DNA of 64,000 nt from Spiroplasma chinense (lineage in GTDB: Bacteria > Bacillota_I > Bacilli_A > Mycoplasmatales > Mycoplasmataceae), in NCBI RefSeq assembly GCF_008086545.1, contig NZ_CP043026.1, positions 434,001 to 498,000 on the forward strand, read 5' to 3'. Every line of letters begins with the position of its first letter. The stretch's first letter is position 1. Position numbers and translations under genes: made by a program. Under the pieces are notes generated by a model, which worked only from the letters and a program-made list of their open reading frames with translations, had not been told where the DNA came from and did not search any database. Shown here in pieces: positions 11,993 to 63,950 of this stretch.

Positions 11993-11999
11993 AAAAAGT

Positions 12000-12028
12000 G
12001 TACATTTTTTTCAATTTCATGACGATAG
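12000..12028 (+). promoter_or_regulatory. Shared non-housekeeping promoter element (copy 1)
   Basis: GTACAT (12000-12005), exactly 17 bases, CGATAG (12023-12028), with the wider context CATGACGATAGTTATA. The same element with the same spacing precedes recU and recA. The ribosome binding site GGAGG begins at 12036, only 7 bases after CGATAG, so a transcript starting at the usual distance would begin at the binding site itself. Confidence 0.6.
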
Positions 12029-12050
12029 TTATAATGGAGGTGAAAAAAAT

Positions 12051-12335
12051 ATGACAGAACTAACTTTAGAACAGAAACGTAAAGTTGTTGGTGGTGCTGG
12101 AATTCCAGCTGCTTTTCTAAATGCAATAGGCGGAATAGTTAAAAGTGGACTTGGTTTCATAGAAAACATGTATACAGACATTGCAACAACAGTATTTTTA
12201 TTTAAACATGCTAACGATTATGACAAGTTAGAAGTTAAAATGGGTAATAGCACGATTAAATATGACAATACCCAATCAAATAAGCTTGAGCTTGAAAATC
12301 AAGCTAAGTTACCAGAACCAGTATTTTTGGTTTAG
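12051..12335 (+). CDS. Bacteriocin-like peptide with double-glycine leader
   Basis: A 94-residue predicted precursor. The first 15 residues, MTELTLEQKRKVVGG, fit the double-glycine leader pattern: leucine at -12, threonine at -11, valine at -4 and GG at -2/-1. Cleavage after G15 would release 79 residues starting AGIPAAFLNAIGGIVKSGLGF, glycine-rich and amphipathic, followed by a polar tail. Such leaders are cut by C39-peptidase ABC exporters; none is in this window. The ATG is fixed by GGAGGTGA 8 bases upstream; the frame is open further upstream but without a binding site. It is expressed from the element it shares with recA and recU. Its role could be a bacteriocin, a signal peptide or a toxin; assignment beyond the leader is inference. 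Confidence 0.6.
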   Translation: MTELTLEQKRKVVGGAGIPAAFLNAIGGIVKSGLGFIENMYTDIATTVFLFKHANDYDKLEVKMGNSTIKYDNTQSNKLELENQAKLPEPVFLV

Positions 12336-18930: not shown

Positions 18931-18954
18931 TTAAACTGTTATACAATAAGAGTG

Positions 18955-19062
18955 AAAAAAGGCAGAGGTAGCAATATATGCTTGAGAAATACTCTTAGAA
19001 CCTGATCTAGTTAATACTAGCGTAGGAAGCCCTTAACAATTAAAATAGGTCTGCTTTTTTTC
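18955..19062 (+). promoter_or_regulatory. TPP (THI-box) riboswitch
   Basis: The hallmark elements of a thiamine-pyrophosphate aptamer are present: a GAGA following the P3 arm (TGCTTGAGA near 18978-18986), then AACCTGATCTAG, TTAATA, CTAGCGTAGGAAG (19000-19029). The CTAG/CTAG stem is P4/P5. A TACAAT -10 box lies at 18942-18947. A T run after GTCTGC (19049-19061) may be a terminator, since GCAGA at 18962-18966 or nearby sequence can pair with TCTGC. The gene downstream is a thiamine transporter component, which confirms the call. Confidence 0.88.
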
Positions 19063-19075
19063 GTGGAGGAAATTC

Positions 19076-20041
19076 ATGAAAAATGAACAAAAAAAGATTT
19101 TTAATATCTCAATAATTTCTTACATTGCTGTTCAAACTATATTGATTCTTGTTGGATTAATATTTTTGGTGATACATCTTGCGTCTAGAAAGACCTGAGA
19201 TGAAAATGGTGCTCTAGTTAGTATGAGTGCTGGAAACATAGCGATGATTTATATTCTATTTATTTTAGGATTTTTAATCATTGCTGTATTGCAAGCAGGT
19301 TATGTAATTATGATGATGCTTGAAAAAGAAGGACAATTAAAAAAACTTATCTTTTCAATCTTGCTACTAAATGTAGTAGGAATAGTGTACAGTTCTTTTG
19401 AAATAAAAGAATGAAATAGCAATATTGGTTATTTAAAACCAAAAAAATGAACTATCTATGAAATGTGTTATGTTGGATTACTATTGAGTTTATACTTACT
19501 AGTAAACTTCATTTCGGGATATATTCCCCCAATGCCATTTTGAATAACAATTTCATTTAAATATATATTCTTGTATGTTGGTGCATACTTGTTAAACTTT
19601 TGAGCTTGTCTGACACTTTGTGTTTTAGCAGCTAGTTTAACAGCTGTTATGCCAGGAACTGCTGTTCTATCACCGGTTCAATACTTATTCGACTATTGAT
19701 TTGTTACAGTAAGTTTTGCTCTTGCAAGTTTGTTTAAACCTGCAGATAATATAAAAAATAAATACGTGGAAGCTGCAAACTATATTACCTTTATAACAAT
19801 TCCTATGATTTGTGTATATGTATCAAGAGTTTTGTCAGGAGTATTATTTTGATTAAATCCTAAAGTTTATACATCTGTATATTATGATTTTGAATGAAAT
19901 GGAGCTTGAACTTATTCAATGATATTCAACGCTTTCAATACAATTTTTGACTATGCAACATTGCTAATATTGGTACCACCAACATGCAAGGTTATGAAAA
20001 TAGTAAAAGATAGACAAACTAGTTGAAATAAGGTTCGTTAA
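19076..20041 (+). CDS. thiT: Thiamine ECF transporter S component (ThiT-like)
   Basis: ThiT captures thiamine in the membrane for an energy-coupling factor ATPase module. The C-terminal 190 residues fit ThiT: NFISGYIPPMPFWITISFKYI, CVLAASLTAVMPGTAVLSPVQYLFDYWFVTVSFALASLF and VYVSRVLSGVLFW, with the tryptophan- and tyrosine-rich WNGAWTYSMIFN segment. The 321-residue protein carries about 120 extra N-terminal residues with three membrane helices not found in ordinary ThiT. Many tryptophans are TGA. The TPP riboswitch directly upstream strongly supports the substrate. GTGGAGGA precedes the ATG. The ECF ATPases and T component are not in this window. Confidence 0.85.
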
Positions 20042-45098: not shown

Positions 45099-45650
45099 AT
45101 GTTTGAACTTTTAAAAAAGGGTTTACTAAAGAAAAGAACATTACTAATTTTGAATTACGCAAAATTAGACATTAGTGAAAACCAATTGGCAATTCTTTTA
45201 TTAATTATGGAATTGTCAGATGAAGATCAAAAAAACTTCACTCCATCTCAATTGGCAAAGTACATGTCAATTGACAAAGAAGTAATTGATAAAGAGATAA
45301 GTAAACTTCTTGTTAATAACTTAATTAAACTTGAAAGCAAAGGTAAAAAAACAGTTTTAAACTTTACACCACTTTTTAGTAAGTTAATAGTTATCTTAGA
45401 AGAAGAAAACTCAAAATTGAATACAGATAACTCTTATGTATTTATTGAAGATATGATTGGAATTAAATTATCTTCAGAAAATATTGAAGAAATCGATTCT
45501 TTCATAGAAAAAGGTCTATCTAAACCAAAAATAATGTCAATAATAAATGAAAATAATATAAAAACTTATGCAGAACTTAAAAAAGTTTTAGATAAGTTCT
45601 TAAAAACTAATGCAATACAAATAACTAGATTTAACTGATTAAATGATTAA
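45099..45650 (+). CDS. DnaD-like replication protein
   Basis: A 183-residue protein with the two-part layout of DnaD, which helps load the helicase at oriC in Firmicutes. The N-terminal winged helix reads LDISENQLAILLLIMELSDEDQKNFTPSQLAKYMSIDKEVIDKEISKLLVNNLIKLE. The C-terminal part (about 120-178) is helical like DnaB2 domains, though the YxxxIxxxW motif is not clear (SKPKIMSIINENNIKTYAELKKVLDKFLK). The ATG at 45099 is preferred to TTG at 45093 because GGGG lies 8 bases before. The frame reads one TGA tryptophan and ends at 45650, overlapping the recU end by 20 bases. dnaD and recU are also near each other in Bacillus. Confidence 0.7.
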
Positions 45651-46110
45651 TGAAAGTTATAATGTTTAGTTTTAAATTATCAAACTCTAATAAATACCCA
45701 TTTTCAATGAATCATTGATAGGGTATTTTTTTCTTTAAATTTTTTGTCAACATTTGAATAGGCAAGCCAAAAAAACTGTTTTCTTTATGAAAGTAAACTA
45801 TAAGAAAAGATGCACCCCCAAGTTGAAAAATAGTATTTAATTTACTTCTTTGATTTTCTTTCAAATTATTTAGATTAAAGTAATCTAACTCTGTTTCTTT
45901 TGCTTCAAACTCAATGTAAATTCCTTTATATAAACCAATATAATCACAAAGATCATTTTTCTTAGCTTTTGAAGTAATAATGTTTTTGTTTACCTCTATT
46001 ATTGAAGAATTAACAGGCATTTTCCTAATTAATAAGCCTTCTTTCTCATAATCTTCTATATTTGTATTTAAAACTGTTTCTAAAAACATTCCTTTATTTT
46101 TTATTATCAT
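45631..46110 (-). CDS. recU: Holliday junction resolvase RecU
   Basis: RecU cuts four-way junctions at the end of recombination. The 159 residues match the family: NKGMFLETVLNTNIEDYEKEGLLIRKMP, the PD-(D/E)xK core DLCDYIGLYKGIYIEFEAKETE (catalytic Asp, and E-A-K), and the C-terminal IPYQWFIENGYLLEF. The TGA at 45714-45712 is tryptophan, so the end is at TAA 45633-45631, inside the convergent DnaD-like gene. The family's N-terminal arm is short here. GAGGTG precedes the ATG by 6 bases, and the shared GTACAT-17-CGATAG element lies directly before it. Confidence 0.9.
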
Positions 46111-46130
46111 TTTATTTCACCTCACTATTA

Positions 46131-46159
46131 CTATCGTCATGTTTTTTGTATTTATGTAC
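46131..46159 (-). promoter_or_regulatory. Shared non-housekeeping promoter element (copy 2)
   Basis: On the minus strand GTACAT (46159-46154), 17 bases, CGATAG (46136-46131), again in the context CATGACGATAGT. The GAGGTG binding site of recU begins 8 bases after CGATAG. Confidence 0.6.
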
Positions 46160-46564: not shown

Positions 46565-46940
46565 AGTGAGATTAGTTTTGAATCAATCGCTATATTTGAA
46601 AAATAATATAGAGGAAACTCCACGCTTGCACATTCTGCGATGAATGTAGTGTTTGTGCTAAGGGAAAAAATAACCTTAGGCATTGCTTTGCAATGACGAC
46701 CGAGATTAGCCTAAGTGATTTATCATATGGCAAAGCTCTTAAAGTGCCACAGAGACGATTAGCTAGAAATAGTGAAATGGAACGGGTAAACTCCACAAGC
46801 AAGAAACTCAAATTTTGGTAGAGGAGCTAAGAGACAGGGAATTGAACCTGTTTCTTGGATTGTGCTTATGCACGATAGATAGATGATTGATGCGCGCAAG
46901 CGATACAGAACGTGGGTTACGACAAACTATCTCACCATCT
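46565..46940 (+). ncRNA. rnpB: RNase P RNA, type B
   Basis: The catalytic RNA that matures tRNA 5' ends. The terminal stem P1 forms from GTGAGATTAGTTTTG (46566-46580) and CAAACTATCTCAC (46923-46935). Conserved core segments are GAGGAAACTCCACGC (46612-46626), GACCGAGATTAGC, a GAAACTCAAATTTTGGTAGAGGAGCTAAG type B core (46804-46832) and GTGGGTTACGACAAACTATC near the end. Length about 375 bases and the lack of the A-type P13/P14 arms agree with the Bacillus-type structure. A TTTTTT run follows. Confidence 0.95.
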
Positions 46941-46959: not shown

Positions 46960-47418
46960 ATGAAATATTTATTTGATTATTTGAAAAAACACAATTTAAA
47001 ATTATCAACTTGTGAATCATTTACAGGGGGAATGTTTGCAAACCAATTTACAAACATTCCTGGAGCAAGTAACTTTTTTACGGGTTCTTTTGTTTGTTAT
47101 TCAAATGATTTTAAAATAGAACAAGTAAATATTGACCAAGAAGTAATTAAAAAATATAGTGAGGTCTCACAAGAAACATTACAGTTAATGTTAAAAAATA
47201 CTCAAGAAGCACTAAAAACAGATATTTGTTTTGCTTTTACTGGGTGAGCAACTCCAATTGACAAAACTAACAAAAATAGTGGTTTAAGCTATGTTGGTTT
47301 TTTGTTAAAGGATAAAATATTTATGTTTGAATTTATAATCAAACATAATTTTTCAAGAAAAAAATATAAAAAAAGAGCAATAAAATTTGTTTTAAAAGAA
47401 TTTAAAAAAGTTTCATAA
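46960..47418 (+). CDS. cinA: CinA C-terminal domain protein (competence/damage-inducible)
   Basis: A 152-residue protein that covers only the C-terminal nicotinamide-nucleotide amidase (PncC-like) domain of CinA. Motifs: [38 protein letters not shown] and [11 protein letters not shown]. The usual N-terminal MoCF domain of CinA is absent. The family's GIAGP motif reads FTGWATP here, so activity may differ. One TGA tryptophan. AAGGA lies 9 bases before the ATG, just after rnpB. cinA-recA adjacency is a known competence-linked order in streptococci and bacilli. It ends 5 bases before the shared promoter element of recA. Confidence 0.85.
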
Positions 47419-47422
47419 TTTT

Positions 47423-47451
47423 GTACATTTTTTTCAAAACCATGACGATAG
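47423..47451 (+). promoter_or_regulatory. Shared non-housekeeping promoter element (copy 3)
   Basis: GTACAT (47423-47428), 17 bases, CGATAG (47446-47451), context CATGACGATAGTTATAG. Copies 1 and 3 agree at all but a few of the bases across the whole element and spacer. GGAGG starts at 47459, 7 bases after CGATAG, as in copy 1. Confidence 0.6.
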
Positions 47452-47471
47452 TTATAGTGGAGGAAAAAATA

Positions 47472-55472: not shown

Positions 55473-56909
55473 ATGAAGAAAAAATTAATTTTTAATATTT
55501 TTATGTTATCAAACATTGCGATAACACCTACTTTGGCAATGTATTCAATATTACCGACAGATAAGGTATTTCTTGATAAAGAAGTTGAAAAGACATTGAA
55601 AAACTATATATTAACAAACTCAATCATAAAAGACAATTATGATTTACTAATATATGAAGGTAAAAAATATAAAAATATCAATGAAATTATTAATTCCATA
55701 CTAATTAAGAATCCTATACTAACCGAAAAAACATTTAGCAATCCAGATAAAATAATAAGTAATTTTTAAACTAATGAAATAGATGGTTCCAAGCTATTGA
55801 GTTATGATGCAAGTAAATTAAGAAAAGTATTTGTAAATTCAAGAGGGAAAATAGTTCTACCAAGTTGTTTTGAAACTAACATACAAAACTGCATAAATAG
55901 TTAATTAAGTTCTGAAAAAAGAGTTGTAAATTCATATTTAAACTCTGGTTTATTTAAACCCAAGTATACCTATGATTTTTTAGAAGATTTAGGAAGAAAA
56001 CAAAACATTATAAACATGTCAATGTTTAACAAAACAATGATCTTTGAATATATTTGAAGTATACTTGCAAATAAATTAACTGATATGAGAATAAAAGACA
56101 ACATAATAAAAGATGATTGATTATATGGAGAAAGAACTGGCAGTTTAAATATGGATTATGCATATTCTTATGTAAATCAAAATAGTAAATTTCAAGAATC
56201 ATTACAAAATGCTTCAGGAAACATTTCTTTAAAGGATGATTTTAATTTTTCATATAATGGAGTTAATTTTACAACTCAATTAGAAAATTGAGTTAACAAT
56301 TTTTATGCTATGGCTTTTGAAAATAATAATGGAATACCATTGCAAAGAATGTACTATGTCCATGACAAAAATGATATTACAAAGTTTTCAGATGTTTTTG
56401 GAAATAATATAGCTTCGTCAATTGGACAAGCTAAAAAAATTGCTTCAGAAAGAGATAATAAGATTCTTGTCAAAAGATATCATATGTATGACATCAATGG
56501 AGAAGAAACAATAATAAATGAATCTGATGAAAATAAAGTTGTAGAAACTTTAAAAAAACAAATAAATTTATCAAGCAAATTTGTCCATAAGGATGAACTA
56601 AAAAAATTAGCTGATCAAAAAACTGATGTAACAGATTTAGTTACAACAAAAGAAAATTATGTTTTTACATTTAAAGCTAGTAATGGAAGACAAATGTATT
56701 TCAAAGATTATAAAAGTGCAAGAGCAATTTTTGAAAATCAAATTTCATTAATTGCAGGAATTAGTGAAAAGAATATTAAAAATTTCACATATTCAATGTT
56801 TATTGGTGAAAAGAAAAATGTTTATTCTTTTACCAATGAGACTAATTTAAATGATTTAGTAAAACAAATTTATAGTGATTTGCAAAGAAGCAAGAAAAGA
56901 GGAGAATAA
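55473..56909 (+). pseudogene. Broken copy of the array's large exported protein
   Basis: The frame runs from ATG 55473 to TAA 56909 but holds two in-frame TAA codons (55767-55769, 55902-55904). It starts with a signal-like MKKKLIFNIFMLSNIAITPTLAM and matches the intact copy at 60573-62894 weakly at first (DGS, VLPSCFE, SGLFKPKYTYDF) and almost identically from DFLEDLGRKQNIINMSMF on. About 300 codons in the middle of the intact copy are missing; the break joins at ATGATT, which occurs at both ends of the missing 900 bp in the intact gene (61057 and 61957). The last 199 codons after an internal ATG (56310) remain open. Confidence 0.85.
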
Positions 56910-57965
56910 GTTATGAAAAAATTATTATCTATTTTAGCAATATCAAGTTTAATTGCAACAACAAGTGTTAATGTTGTTGCTTGTAATAATGAAAGTAATG
57001 ACAATAAAGTCACACCAGACCCAATACCTGAAGTTGTTAAAACTCGATTTAGTGACAAAGAATATGATGATGCGCTTGGAACTTTTAGTTTTGAACAAAG
57101 AGGTGAAGGTATAACATTAACATCAAATGAGCAAAAAACAGCTTTTCGTTGGGATACTCCAACCGAAAAAGCTTACTCAATAAACTTATCAAAAGAAGAA
57201 ATGGACGATGTATTCATTTTACCTTTCGATCTTGAATTAGAAACCAGTATTGAAAAACCTTTTGATAATGAAATTATTAGTTTAATTACTTTTAATTCGA
57301 ATCAAATAGATGGAGAATTTGGGTATTGAGCTGATTTTTGATATAAAGTTGGAAAAAAATCAAGAGAAGGTTTAACTGTTAATGATAGAAAAAATGCAGA
57401 AATTTTAAGAGCAACACAATGACAATACGATACTATTTCAAATAAAAAAAATGTAGTTAAAAGAGATTATGTTATTGAATCTAGCGATGGCACTACTCTT
57501 ACAATGACAGTCTTAATAGTTGTACAAGATTATTTAACATCAACTTTTTTATTTAATGGAAGACAGATGTTTGAAAACTTTATAAGAGATGAAAAATATA
57601 AAGATTTTTTTGGAAATGTCGAATACAGTTTAACTGAAGGAGCTATTTTTCTAGGAGTTATATTATCAGACCCTTTAGATTTTTATGAAAAAATTAACGG
57701 TATTAGTATGGCAGATAATTATAAAGAATATTTTGAAAAACTATTTAATGACTTAAGAGAAGAAGTTTTAAATTCTAATCCCGATTTAAAAGACTATTTA
57801 TTTGAAATAAATGAAACCGAACTTAGCGATGGTGAAGATACAATTTATACTGGTGTAAGCGTGGATATTAAAACTAAAAGAAAAAAAGGAGTTAATACTA
57901 ATAATAGTATGCGTATAGGTATGTCAGGTCCTGAAAAAACTTTATAATTTTATAAAAACTTATTC
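56026..57965 (+). repeat. Tandem array unit A (1,940 bp)
   Basis: Starts at TTAACAAAACAATGATC inside the large gene and runs through lipoprotein copy 1 and 18 bases beyond its stop. Same length as unit C. Confidence 0.88.
56913..57947 (+). CDS. Array lipoprotein, copy 1
   Basis: A 344-residue lipoprotein with signal MKKLLSILAISSLIATTSVNVVAC (lipid on Cys24). Conserved across copies are EVVKTRFSDKEYDDALGTFSFEQ, FILPFDLELETS, DGTTLTMTVLIVVQDYLTS and FFGNVEYSLTEGA, ending KKGVNTNNSMRIGMSGPEKTL. No known domain is recognised. Tryptophan is coded by both TGG and TGA. The GAGGAG binding site lies in the end of the upstream copy, whose stop is 3 bases before the ATG, so it is translated as the second gene of a pair. 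A variable surface antigen is the likeliest role, by analogy. Confidence 0.8.
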
Positions 57966-57976
57966 TTAACAAAACA

Positions 57977-58849
57977 ATGATCTTTGAATATATTTGATGT
58001 ATACTTGCAAATAAATTAACTGATATGAGAATAAAAGACAACATAATAAAAGATGATTGATTATATGGGGAAAGAACTGGAAGTTTAAATATGGATTACG
58101 CATATTCTTATGTAAATCAAAATAGTAAATTTCAAGAATCATTACAAAATGCTTCAGGAAACATTTCTTTAAAAGATGATTTTAACTTTTCTTATAATGG
58201 AGTTAATTTTACAACTCAATTAGAAAATTGAGTTAACAATTTTTATGCTATGGCTTTTGAAAACAATAATGGAATACCATTGCAAAGAATGTACTATGTC
58301 CATGACAAAAATGATATTACAAAGTTTTCAGATATTTTTGGAAACAATATAGCTTCGTCAATTGGACAAGCTAAAAAAATAGCTTCAGAAAGAGATAATA
58401 AGATTCTTGTCAAAAGATATCATATGTATGATATCAATGGAGAAGAAACTATTATAAATGAGTCTGATGAAAATAAAGTTGTAGAAATTTTAAAAAAACA
58501 AATAAATTTATCAAGCAAATTCGTCCATAAGGATGAACTAAAAAAATTAGTGGATCAAAAAACTGATATAACAGATTTAGTTACAACAAAAGAAAATTAT
58601 GTTTTTACATTTAAAGCTAGTAATGGAAGACAAATGTATTTTAAAGATTATAAAAGTGCAAGAGCAATATTTGAAAATCAAATATCTTTAATTGCGGGAA
58701 TAAGTGAAAAGAATATTAAAAATTTTACTTATTCTATGTTTATTGGCGAAAAGAAATATGTGTATTCTTTTACCAATGAAACTAATTTGAACGATTTAGT
58801 AAAACAAATTTATAACGATTTGCAAAAAATCAAGAAAAGAGGAGAATAA
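57977..58849 (+). pseudogene. 5'-truncated copy of the large exported protein
   Basis: This copy keeps only the C-terminal 290 residues (from MIFEYIWCILANKLTDMRIKD) and has no signal peptide. The frame is closed by TAA just upstream (57967-57969). The ATG at 57977 is internal in the intact gene and has no binding site, so it is probably not translated from there. Sequence is close to the copies at 56310 and 62295. The array unit was joined here by a break in the middle of the gene, just before TTAACAAAACAATG. Confidence 0.8.
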
Positions 58850-58852
58850 GTT

Positions 58853-59881
58853 ATGAAAAAATTATTATCTATTTTAGCAATATCAAGTTTAGTTGCAACA
58901 ACAAGTGTAAATGTTGTCGCTTGTAATGAAAAAAACGACAAAGACAAAACAATGCCAGACCCAATACCTGAAGTTGTTAAAACTCGATTTAGTGATAAAG
59001 AATATGATGATGCACTAGGAACTTTTAGTTTTGAACAAAAAGCTGATGGAATTAAATTAATTTCTAACGAACAAAAAACAGCTTTTGGTTGAAATTCTTC
59101 AACAGAAAAAGCCTATTCAATAGATTTATCACAAGAAGTTATGGATGATATATTCATTTTACCTTTCGACTTAGAACTAGAAACTAGTTTAGAAAAACCT
59201 TTTGATAATGAAATGATTAGTTTAATTACTTTTGACCCAGACAGAATCTATAATGACTATGCTTATTGGTCTCAATTCTGATATGAGGCAGGATTAAAGT
59301 CTAGAGAGGGTACAATTGTTAATAATAGAAGATATGCAGAAACTTTAAGGACAAATGAATGGCAGTCAAATCCTAGTCATTATAAAGAAAATGTAATTAG
59401 AAGAGATTATGATATTGAGTCTAGAGATGGCACAACCCTTACGATGACGGTCTTAATTGTTGTGCAAGATTATTTAACATCAAGTTATTTATTTAATGGT
59501 AAAAATATGTTAGAAAATTTTATAAGAAATGAAAAATACTCTGATTTTTTTGGAAATGTAGAATTTAGTTTAAGACTATCAGAATATTTATGATTTAATC
59601 ACCCAGATATTTTAGATTTTACAAAAGAAATTGAAGGAAAACAAATGATAGAGCATTTTAAAACTTATATTTTGAACGGGTTTAATGATTTGAGAAAACA
59701 AATTCTAGATTATAATTCAAAATTAGCTGATTACTTATTTAGTGTAGATGAATATACTTTAGATGATGGTCATGAAAGCTCTTATACATCTTTCAGACTT
59801 GATATAAGAACCTCAAGAAAAAAAGGTACTAATTTAAATAAGGAAATGCTTGTTCTGTTAAGTGGACCCAAAAAAGATTAA
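58853..59881 (+). CDS. Array lipoprotein, copy 2 (diverged)
   Basis: A 342-residue lipoprotein with the same signal (Cys24) and the common segments EVVKTRFSDKEYDDALGTFSFEQ and LTMTVLIVVQDYLTSSYLFNG. The second half has diverged from copies 1 and 3 (EFSLRLSEYLWFNHPDILDFTKEIEGKQ, ending LLSGPKKD) and the C-terminus differs. Tryptophans are a mix of TGG and TGA. The ATG is 3 bases after the truncated gene upstream, with the same GAGGAG site. Because its partner gene has lost its start, it may rely on its own ribosome entry or on transcription from further upstream. Confidence 0.8.
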
Positions 59882-60580
59882 AAAGTATTTTTATTAGATG
59901 GAAGATACTTTCCAGATTATGAATCTGCTTACCAACAACTTTTAAAAAACATTGTTGTAAAAGTTGTTGAAAAGGGACCAAGATATTACTTTATTAAAGG
60001 TCAAGTAAATGATAAACAAGAAGACAAAGAAAAACTAATAGAAGACTTTTATCAAAATGCAATAAAAAATAATAAAGTACAAGATAGATACACAGATTAT
60101 TTTGGAGAAACTTTTGATACAAAAGAAGCTGCCTTCTTATCTATGGAAAGAAAAATAAATGATGAAAAGAATTTAAGTAAGTTCTATTCTTATAGATTTG
60201 GAAGTTCTATAGACAATGTTGTTTACTACAAAACTGAACAAGAAATAAAAGAATTTGTAGATGATATTACAGATATTGAAAGTAAAACGGTAAGTATTAC
60301 TGAATTAATTTCAAATACAAACTTTGATTCTCTATATGATTTAGATAATTTTGATCAAACAATATACTCATTTAATTTATATGGAATGGAGTATTACTAT
60401 AAAGATAAAACAAATGCTTATTTTGCAATTTATAAATTATTAAATTACAAAAACAGTTTAGTACTAACAGAGTTTAGAACTTATACCTTAAACGATTTAA
60501 GTTTTGAAAATATATTAGAATACATATCTTATCTTGAAGAAAAAATTACCGAAACTAAGAGAGGTGATTTATATGTTTAA
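59882..60580 (+). pseudogene. Remnant of a diverged paralogue of the large exported protein
   Basis: Directly after the stop of lipoprotein copy 2, in the same frame, 232 codons are open without any start codon near the beginning (KVFLLDGRYFPDYESAYQQLL...). The C-terminal part (YSFNLYGMEYYYKDKTNAYFAIYKLL...TLNDLSFENILEYISYLEEK) has the same pattern as the end of the intact gene (FTFKASNGRQMYFKDYKSARAIF...TNLNDLVKQIYSDLQ), so it is a diverged member of that family cut at its 5' side. It could only be made by reading through the stop at 59879-59881. Its end overlaps the intact copy by 8 bases. Confidence 0.7.
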
Positions 60581-62894
60581 AAATAAATTAACCTTAATGT
60601 TAATGAGTTTAACAGTTGGATATGCAACTGTTGCAAACAGTATTACTTTTGTAAATAGTTCTGACTTAGTAAAAAGAATGATAAAAGAAGATATAGAAAG
60701 AAACTCTATACAAGTTAGTAATGAAAAAAAGTATCTTTACAATAATGAAGAATTTAGTAATAGAGATAGTATTGTACAAAAAGAACTTTTAAAAAATCCA
60801 ATTACTGCTCAAAAAACTTTAAGTGACCCTTTAAAAATAGTTGCAAACCATGCAACTAACGAGTTGGATGGTTCACAAGTTTATGGAACAAAAGCAGAAG
60901 ACATGGTAAAGGTATATGAAAATGCCTTAGGAAAAGCTGTTCTTCCAAGTTGTTATGAATACAACTTGGATGGTTGCGTTCAAACTGGTATAGAATCTAA
61001 AACTAGAGCTTTAAATAGTTTTACAAACAAAGGTTTATTAAAACCTAAATATTCTTATGATTATGTAAACTGATTTGACTCTGTTGAAGAAGCAGACATT
61101 GACTTTACAAGAGCAAATTATGATGTAAGTGAATCTTTGTTTTACCATTACAATGGACAATACTTTAATGCATTTAATGCAGAAGATAATAAAAGAATGA
61201 AATCACAACTGACTAAAGGATATTGATTCGGTGGGTTTGGAGATGAATATTTTGATAAAGATGATATAAAAGATGTCTTTAAAAAAGGTTTTTATTATCC
61301 TGATTATTACTTTATAGACTACTTTAAACAAAATTTTAAGGATTACTTCACAGATGCCAATTTTAACTCGGGTTTAGTACCTAAAATAGTTGATTTTAAA
61401 AGAAACTTTAAAATAAAATTGAAACCAGGAATATCACCAGATCATTTAGAACAGTGACTTGTAAGTGAACAAAATGATTTTGATTCTTTAACAATTAATG
61501 ATAAAAATAAAAAAGAATTAATTATTAATGTAGGTAATGGTAATGATCAATTTGATTTCAAAAACTTTGAAAAACAATTTAAAAATAAGGACAACTGAAT
61601 TCCTGAAATTGAGCATGCCACTTGTTGACCAATTACAACGGACACAAAAAGAGTAAATAGATTCAAATTTTCTATTGATAACGGCGAAGGAGGATCAGTG
61701 GAACTAAAGTTAATGTTAGATACTCACAAAGATGGCGAAAATGGATGTCCTATTGGTTTCAATGATACTGATTATAAAAATATAGAAATAGAGCCCATTT
61801 ACGAAGAGGATGACTTCAAATTTAGTTGAAATAATGATGCCCAAATGTTTAATGATATAAAAAAAATCTACGAACTTGGTGAATTGAATTCAAAAAAACT
61901 TATAGACTACATTTATGGAGAACAAATTAAACAAAGAACTGAAGATTACGGTCCTAATGATTTTTTAGAAGATTTAGGAAGAAAACAAAACATTATAAAC
62001 ATGTCAATGTTTAACAAAACAATGATCTTTGAATATATTTGAAGTATACTTGCAAATAAATTAACTGATATGAGAATAAAAGACAACATAATAAAAGATG
62101 ATTGATTATATGGGGAAAGAACTGGAAGTTTAAATATGGATTACGCATATTCTTATGTAAATCAAAATAGTAAATTTCAAGAATCATTGCAAAATGCTTC
62201 AGGAAATATTTCTTTAAAAGATGATTTTAACTTTTCTTATAATGGAGTTAATTTTACAACTCAATTAGATAATTGAGTTAACAATTTTTATGCTATGGCT
62301 TTTGAAAACAATAATGGAATACCATTGCAAAGAATGTACTATGTCCATGATAAAAATGATATTACAAAATTTTCAGATATTTTTGGAAATAATATAGCTT
62401 CGTCAATTGGACAAGCTAAAAAAATAGCTTCAGAAAGAGACAATAAGATTCTTGTCAAAAGATATCATATGTATGATATCAATGGGGAAGAAACAATAAT
62501 AAACGAATCTGATGAAAATAAAGTTGTTGAGACTTTAAAAAAACAAATTAATTTATCAAGCAAATTCGTCCATAAGGATGAACTAAAAAAATTAGCTGAC
62601 CAAAAAACTGATGTAACAAATTTAGTAACATCAAAAGAAAATTATGTCTTTACATTTAAAGCTAGTAATGGAAGACAAATGTATTTTAAAGATTATAAAA
62701 GTGCAAGAGCAATTTTTGAAAATCAAATCTCATTAATTGCAGGAATTAGTGAAAAGAATATTAAAAAATTCACTTATTCAATGTTTATTGGTGAAAAGAA
62801 AAATGTTTATTCTTTTACCAATGAAACTAATTTAAACGATTTAGTAAAACAAATTTATAGTGATTTGCAAAGAAGCAAGAAAAGAGGAGAATAA
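60573..62894 (+). CDS. Large exported protein of the array, intact copy
   Basis: The only full-length copy: 773 residues. A signal segment MFKNKLTLMLMSLTVGYATVANS has no lipobox cysteine, so it is probably cleaved or kept as an anchor. Cysteines occur in two short groups (LPSCYEYNLDGC and ATCW...NGC), unusual for this genome. The C-terminal 280 residues are shared with the truncated copies and include YYVHDKNDITKFSDIFGNNIASSIGQAKKIASERD. Tryptophans are nearly all TGA. GAGGTGA lies 6 bases before the ATG at 60573. No known domain is recognised. It is paired with lipoprotein copy 3, 3 bases on. A surface role is inferred. Confidence 0.75.
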
Positions 62895-63950
62895 GTTATG
62901 AAAAAATTATTATCTATTTTAGCAGTATCAAGTTTAATTGCAACAACAAGTGTTAATGTTGTTGCTTGTAATAATAAAAATATTGAGAAAAATATCACAC
63001 CAGACCCAATACCAGAAGTTGTTAAAACTCGATTTAGTGACAAAGAGTACGATGATGCGCTTGGAACTTTTAGTTTTGAACAAAATGGTGAAGGAATTAC
63101 ATTAACTTCAAAAAATCAAAAAACTGCTTTTGGTTGAAATTCCTCAACTGAAAAAGCATACTCAATTAACTTATCAAAAGAAGTAATGAATGATATATTC
63201 ATTCTACCTTTTGATATTGAATTAGAAACTAGTATTGAAAAACCTTTTGATAATGAAATTATTAGTTTAATTACATTTAATCCAAAACAAATTGAGGAAC
63301 AAGGAGGTTATTGATCTAAATTTTGAAGTGAAGCTGGAGATAAATCAAGAGAAGGTTTGACTGTTAATGATAGAAGACATGCAGAAATTTTAAGAGCGAC
63401 ACAATGGCAATCAAATGCAATACACAATAGAAAAAATGTAGTTAGAAGAGATTATGACATTGAGTCTAGTGAAGGCACTACTCTTACAATGACAGTCTTA
63501 ATAGTTGTACAAGATTATTTAACATCGACTTATTTATTTAATGGAAGACAGATGTTTGAAAACTTTATAAGAGATGAAAAATATAAAGATTTTTTTGGAA
63601 ATGTCGAATATAGTTTAACTGAAGGAGCTATATTTTTAGGAGTTAGATTATCAGACCCTTTAGACTTTTATGAAAAAATTAACGGTATTAGTATGGCAGA
63701 TAATTATAAAGATTATTTTGAAAAACTATTTAATAACTTAAGAGAAATAGTTTTAAATTCTAATCCTGATTTAAAAGACTATTTATTTGAAATAAATGAA
63801 ACCGAGCTTAGTGATGGTAAAGATACAACTTGAACTGGAGTGAGTGTGAATATTAAAACAAAAAGAAAAAAAGGAGTTAATACTAATAATAGTATGCGTA
63901 TAGGTATGTCAGGTCCTGAAAAAACTTTATAATTTTATAAAAACTTATTC
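62011..63950 (+). repeat. Tandem array unit C (1,940 bp)
   Basis: From TTAACAAAACAATG in the intact large gene to 18 bases after the stop of lipoprotein copy 3. Exactly as long as unit A. Confidence 0.88.
62898..63932 (+). CDS. Array lipoprotein, copy 3
   Basis: A 344-residue lipoprotein, same length as copy 1 and nearly identical in its last two thirds (for example GRQMFENFIRDEKYKDFFGNVEYSLTEGAIFLGV and NTNNSMRIGMSGPEKTL). Differences from copy 1 cluster after the lipid cysteine (NNKNIEKNITPDPIPE) and around residues 128-150 (NPKQIEEQGGYWSKFW). This clustering of changes between conserved blocks resembles that of variable surface proteins. Signal with Cys24; GAGGAG at the end of the intact large gene serves as binding site. 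The frame ends at 63930-63932 with several TGA tryptophans. Confidence 0.82.

Follow-up and report, generated by a model that had tools for sequence, protein, structure and literature searches.

An element shared by recA, recU and a double-glycine peptide gene of Spiroplasma chinense is probably a promoter of a SigH-type alternative sigma factor and suggests a competence programme

Three genes of Spiroplasma chinense that differ in function, coding for a double-glycine peptide, RecU and RecA, carry the same two-block sequence just ahead of their ribosome-binding sites, which raises the question of what reads this sequence and what else it controls. Mollicutes are generally credited with one conserved sigma factor and with alternative ones that are mostly species-specific and partial (PMC5138195); sigma-factor counts for Mesoplasma florum (PMC7745072) and for two spiroplasmas (PMC9666726) came to one. 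A first-pass annotation of the window, by which we mean the whole 64,000-nucleotide stretch analysed here (C1:434001-498000), had proposed a promoter recognised by a sigma factor of the SigH/ComX type.

The three copies of GTACAT-N17-CGATAG lie exactly where that annotation had placed them, at 12000-12028 (+), 46131-46159 (-) and 47423-47451 (+). They have the core CATGACGATAGT in common, as it had described, and the Shine-Dalgarno sequence stands 7 bases past CGATAG, in agreement with the spacing it gave. Its description of the genes as unlinked does not hold for recA and recU, which are about 1.4 kb apart and divergently oriented. Dinucleotide shuffles of the window produce only about 1.5 matches even when two mismatches are allowed; the window itself contains two extra matches at two mismatches (1185 and 10103), both within ORFs. 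The features concerned are these:

12000..12029, plus strand: candidate promoter element GTACAT-N17-CGATAG(T) before the double-glycine peptide gene (exact motif match)
12036..12041, plus strand: ribosome-binding site, 6 nt past the 30-nt element
12051..12335, plus strand: 94-aa peptide with a double-glycine leader (MTELTLEQKRKVVGG...)
45631..46110, minus strand: recU, Holliday-junction resolvase (PF03838, 2.7e-35)
46130..46159, minus strand: candidate promoter element before recU (exact motif match)
47423..47452, plus strand: candidate promoter element before recA, beginning 5 nt past the cinA stop codon
47472..48506, plus strand: recA

The gene directly 5' of recA (46960-47418, +) was identified by eye as CinA-like, of the competence/damage-inducible type, and between it and a DivIVA/GpsB-like gene lies a class B RNase P RNA (46575-46925, +; Rfam RF00011, 260 bits).

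The whole genome, one contig of 1,370,182 bases in which TGA is read as Trp, was scanned with the 30-base form GTACAT-N12-CATGACGATAGT. This gave 10 exact matches, 6 with one mismatch, 5 with two and 2 with three, and the reversed-pattern control gave 0 and 1. Both three-mismatch matches are intragenic and were discarded as noise. With a spacer allowed to be several bases shorter or longer, 19 sites were found, every one with an identical spacer, and none in the control. The 21 sites that deviate at no more than two positions are all intergenic and oriented into a start codon 15-60 nt away, so that the many random hits inside genes which had been named in advance as an argument against the element did not appear. 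In 17 of the 21 the ribosome-binding site starts exactly 6 nt past the 30-nt element.

Further copies had been predicted before comEC, dprA, ssb and additional small genes, and such sites are present among the 21. Besides recA, recU and the double-glycine peptide gene of the window, the targets include a gene for an SSB paralogue followed by dprA (PF02481, 7e-23), and a comEC operon in which a 176-aa membrane protein precedes ComEC (PF03772 plus a metallo-beta-lactamase domain, Lactamase_B), so that the late-competence set of comEC, dprA, the ssb paralogue and recA stands under one common promoter type. The 176-aa protein gave no ComEA match, and nothing in the operon could be recognised as a DNA receptor of the ComEA type. 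Another target is an ABC exporter with a C39 peptidase domain (its NF045998 match is below the cut-off); the 94-aa peptide, for which a Pfam search returned no match, is a candidate substrate of this exporter, as its leader suggests. A 103-aa protein whose gene lies ahead of mraZ and an rsmH-like gene, a large protein predicted to be secreted and several proteins without any family complete this part of the list, together with a gene that, as we read its sequence, codes for a C5 DNA methylase and has the weakest site, 60 nt from the start. No ruvA or ruvB start lies directly downstream of any of the 21 sites.

Repeat-rich coiled-coil proteins make up at least two paralogous groups of targets (L001/L002/L012/L021 and L011/L013/L018), and L012 and L017 are a tandem duplicate with an element before each copy. 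The element-bearing coiled-coil genes (L001, L002, L010-L013, L017, L018 and L021) contain short internal repeats, such as TQQKTIE, EASNERL and EQDRKQA. At one other site (L015), the stretch from the element to the first long gene contains a six-codon ORF (MKNSNL) that has a ribosome-binding site of its own.

A genome search for Sigma70_r2 genes found only two, rpoD and a gene for a 201-aa protein at C1:35288-35890. The second agrees with the orphan sigma-like gene, limited to regions 2 and 4, that had been predicted, and it occupies the sigH locus: the order cysS-rlmB-sigma-rpmG-secE-nusG, seen in S. chinense and in its genus relatives, matches the sigH gene order of B. subtilis (cysS-rlmB-X-rpmG-secE-nusG). 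A single-sequence search detected the sigma gene in 19 of the 20 genomes of the genus. The G009 copy spans two frames; in G004 a relic in pieces with stops is left, and comEC was not detected in that genome. The comEC Pfam model gave no match in G010 and G011 either, despite an intact sigma gene in both, so that joint loss of the sigma gene and comEC is seen in one genome, G004. Elsewhere in the order, other genera and other families have a sigma-like ORF in the same slot (G030, G082, G095, G021, G118 and G039); a search with the sigma profile of the loci from the NusG scan, in Erysipelotrichaceae and Clostridia, gave noise only. The sigma gene has GTG as its start codon, shares 8 nt with the end of rlmB and lacks an evident ribosome-binding site, which makes low or conditional translation plausible; sigH of S. 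aureus is likewise limited at the level of translation (PMC3486894).

The sigma proteins of the genus share just 21-37% identity with the S. chinense protein, in which Pfam recognises Sigma70_r2. A profile of 16 family members found SigH 3mzy as its best PDB match (E 3.4e-5, positions 50-208 of 208, regions 2 and 4), followed by SigI6 and SigI1. The curated SigH cut-off was not reached (PRK08295, 18.4 bits vs 212), and among NCBIfam models SigI, FliA/WhiG and ECF outscore PRK08295, all of them below cut-off, with SigI as the closest region-2 model. SigI of Clostridium and Bacillus reads C-14 and G-13 of a CGWA -10 box via R97, R98, D101 and R104 (PMC10575876). Its R98 and D101 align with R86 and D89, which are invariant in the present family, and its R104 aligns with R/K92; argued from this alignment, R86 and D89 would tie a feature of the protein to the conserved CG of the box. 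SigI is thus alike in its -10 box and in the matching Arg and Asp residues, but serves heat shock or the sensing of iron, virulence or carbohydrate signals, from another locus and with another regulon. The description of the element as ComX/SigH-like stands in respect of the gene position and the CG of the -10 box, whereas the box itself is CGAT(A/T/G) and not CGAAT, and the -35 sequence GTACAT is unlike the AGGA-type -35 of SigH.

Is the element conserved? The strict GTACAT motif gave only isolated two-mismatch matches in 60 relatives and was absent from the 19 other genus genomes. Since GTACAT is specific to the species, orthologous upstream regions were compared instead, and they show that the strict motif is missing in relatives because its -35 half has changed, whereas the CGAT box stays directly before the ribosome-binding site. 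The expected conservation before orthologous recA and recU is thus borne out by the CGAT box, in almost every one of 20 genomes, but not by GTACAT. Counting CGAT between -38 and -14 of the start codon in 20 genus genomes (S. chinense and 19 others), we found it before recA in 19, recU in 16, ssb-dprA in 18 and the C39 exporter in 19. The total is 72 of 80 target starts, against 4 of 160 background starts of other genes at the same loci (Fisher p ~1e-46, a value that overstates independence because the genomes that supplied targets and background genes are partly related). Among all 256 4-mers CGAT ranked highest. The weight is carried by the pattern across unrelated genes rather than by the Fisher value. 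One of the four background hits is the comEC operon of S. chinense itself. When the background had first been tested, with the box and the search interval chosen slightly differently, 9 of the 10 background matches fell on the leading gene of the comEC operon. A CGA box precedes this operon in all 16 genomes aligned there, G018 reading CGAA. The alignment table was selected, since a CGA-type box was sought while aligning; the 4-mer test is free of such selection. G004 retains CGAT boxes although its sigma gene is broken, which recent decay could explain.

The aligned upstream regions also contain an A at -19 (74%) and a run of T at -17 to -13 (68-84%), features that would fit a -35 region some 17 bp away from CGAT. 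The three g12 genomes also have an ACGAT box before recA. At the recA loci L201-L219, which belong to the family's other genera, CGAT is missing, and CCTTA(A)TA or CCTAAT(C/T) often stands at the same place; g11 reads ACGTT. These strings are possibly other promoter codes of the same sigma factor.

We propose, with a probability of about 0.86 in view of the sequence comparisons above, that the element is the promoter of an alternative sigma factor, the 201-aa SigH-type protein encoded at C1:35288-35890, and that it drives a competence and recombination programme combined with peptide secretion. This protein would be a second sigma factor overlooked so far and is probably the reader of the element, and the set of targets suggests natural competence. 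Region 2 of the sigma factor would read CGAT(A/G) as the -10 box and region 4 would read, about 17 bp upstream, GTACAT or, in relatives, a less strict GTA/T-tract, so that transcripts would start just ahead of the ribosome-binding site with leaders of some 10-25 nt. Normally quiet, the sigma factor once active would turn on all target genes as one set. The DNA channel ComEC, together with a membrane partner, would take in one strand, which the SSB paralogue and DprA would protect and load with RecA; RecA would recombine the incoming strand and RecU would process the junctions. The regulon would also take in the C5 DNA methylase, the repeat-rich coiled-coil proteins and, in S. chinense, the double-glycine peptide. 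The C39 exporter would release a peptide, possibly a signal or a bacteriocin; competence-linked peptides of streptococci act as one or the other. Independent support for co-regulation comes from S. poulsonii, whose transcripts of recU, ruvAB, recR and comEC increase jointly in culture, an observation from which its authors proposed natural competence (PMC5874924).

Comparison with competence sigma factors of other bacteria shows both the likeness and its limits. SigH of S. aureus is also a poorly conserved sigma factor at a conserved locus (a "similarity gulf") and turns on competence operons including comE (PMC3486894); the present element differs in standing before recA, recU, ssb-dprA and the C39 exporter, and in its CGAT -10 and GTACAT -35. 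In Listeria monocytogenes the sigma-H promoter lies 22 nt from comEA with GGCGAAT as its -10, and thus has a CGA box directly before the comE operon, but there the -35 is AAAGGAATT and the box GGCGAAT, where S. chinense has GTACAT and GACGATAG (PMC4754846). The Spiroplasma regulon further resembles the streptococcal one in a CGA-type -10, in its ssb, dprA, recA and com targets and in peptide export. Streptococcal ComX/SigX, which is induced by a pheromone circuit, uses a CGAA-type -10, its late competence targets include ssbB, dprA, recA and comE, and bacteriocin or peptide export is tied to competence.

An explanation that overlaps with ours, sharing the promoter and differing in its purpose, is that the alternative sigma factor serves recombination, antigenic or genomic variation, or repair, and not the uptake of external DNA. 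Its model is sigma20 (MG428) of Mycoplasma genitalium, a mollicute alternative sigma factor that activates recA and other recombination genes, controls ruvAB and drives adhesin variation (PMC9262362). Here too recA stands under an alternative-sigma promoter, and several of the coiled-coil targets have short internal repeats, one of them being tandemly duplicated. The sigma20 promoter, presumably TTGTCA-N18/19-ATTWAT, is another sequence, and we know of no comEC, dprA or C39-exporter targets of sigma20. What speaks against this purpose is that comEC and ssb-dprA belong to the core set genus-wide and that ruvAB, a target of sigma20, is absent from the 21 sites, and we hold it to be rather unlikely.

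The regulon might instead be one of peptide export or bacteriocin production, for instance for the killing of neighbours, with the recombination genes as passengers. The C39 exporter has kept a CGA(T/C) box in 20 of 20 genomes, and in S. chinense the element precedes a double-glycine peptide gene; such a peptide was, however, not seen at other loci of the genus in a partial search, and comEC, dprA-ssb, recA and recU are themselves conserved members. This makes a purely secretory regulon improbable. Slightly more improbable still is an operator role for the element, with an SOS-like or ComK-like activator or repressor acting on it at ordinary sigma-A promoters. The presence of recA, recU and ssb, classical damage-response genes, would fit such an operator, as would the TATA(A/G)T-like strings found 3' of CGATAG in several of the S. 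chinense copies, but comEC, dprA and a peptide exporter are atypical of SOS, and these strings would put the transcript start within or after the ribosome-binding site. The SOS-operator and sigma-A readings were rejected, as the element is non-palindromic, consists of two blocks with the 17-bp geometry of a promoter and always faces its gene, and relatives do not keep the TATAxT strings. Likewise rejected, and hardly credible given the fixed position relative to the starts, the unrelated flanks and the conservation of the box across 20 genomes, is a repeat that is mobile or arose by chance and has no regulatory role; in its favour only the low copy number in the window can be cited.

Returning to the alternative-sigma reading, competence sigma factors (S. 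aureus, Listeria) and a recombination sigma factor (M. genitalium) were already known; in our best reading, a SigH-type Spiroplasma regulon with a promoter of its own is unreported in the literature searched. No report of a sigma factor at the sigH locus or of a common competence promoter in Spiroplasma was found in that literature, which left most subscription journals outside its scope. If a second sigma factor, its promoter and a comEC/dprA/recA regulon do exist genus-wide, they would explain why competence genes are retained in reduced genomes, would offer a direct way into natural transformation for organisms not easily manipulated, the competence programme now being testable, and would be a case of a promoter code drifting alongside its sigma factor. 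The coiled-coil family and the peptide exporter would thereby be placed in a programme. More tentatively, and at somewhat less than even odds, a SigH-type competence programme with a diverged promoter code may have been kept throughout this wall-less genus and, judging from the sigma locus, across much of the Mycoplasmatales, with a peptide-processing exporter, coupled to it genus-wide, whose cargo could be a competence signal or a bacteriocin that releases DNA. The vlhA promoters of M. gallisepticum have a deviant -10, GCGAAAAT, for which an alternative sigma factor has been proposed (PMC5138195), and the gene in the sigH slot of mycoplasmas would be a candidate for that sigma factor.

Two features of the window lie apart from the element. 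A TPP riboswitch (18954-19045, +; RF00059, 69 bits) is found ahead of the ORF at 19076, and at 56016-63932 (+) large ORFs of about 290 and about 344 aa alternate with near-equal length and spacing, an arrangement that resembles tandem gene duplication.
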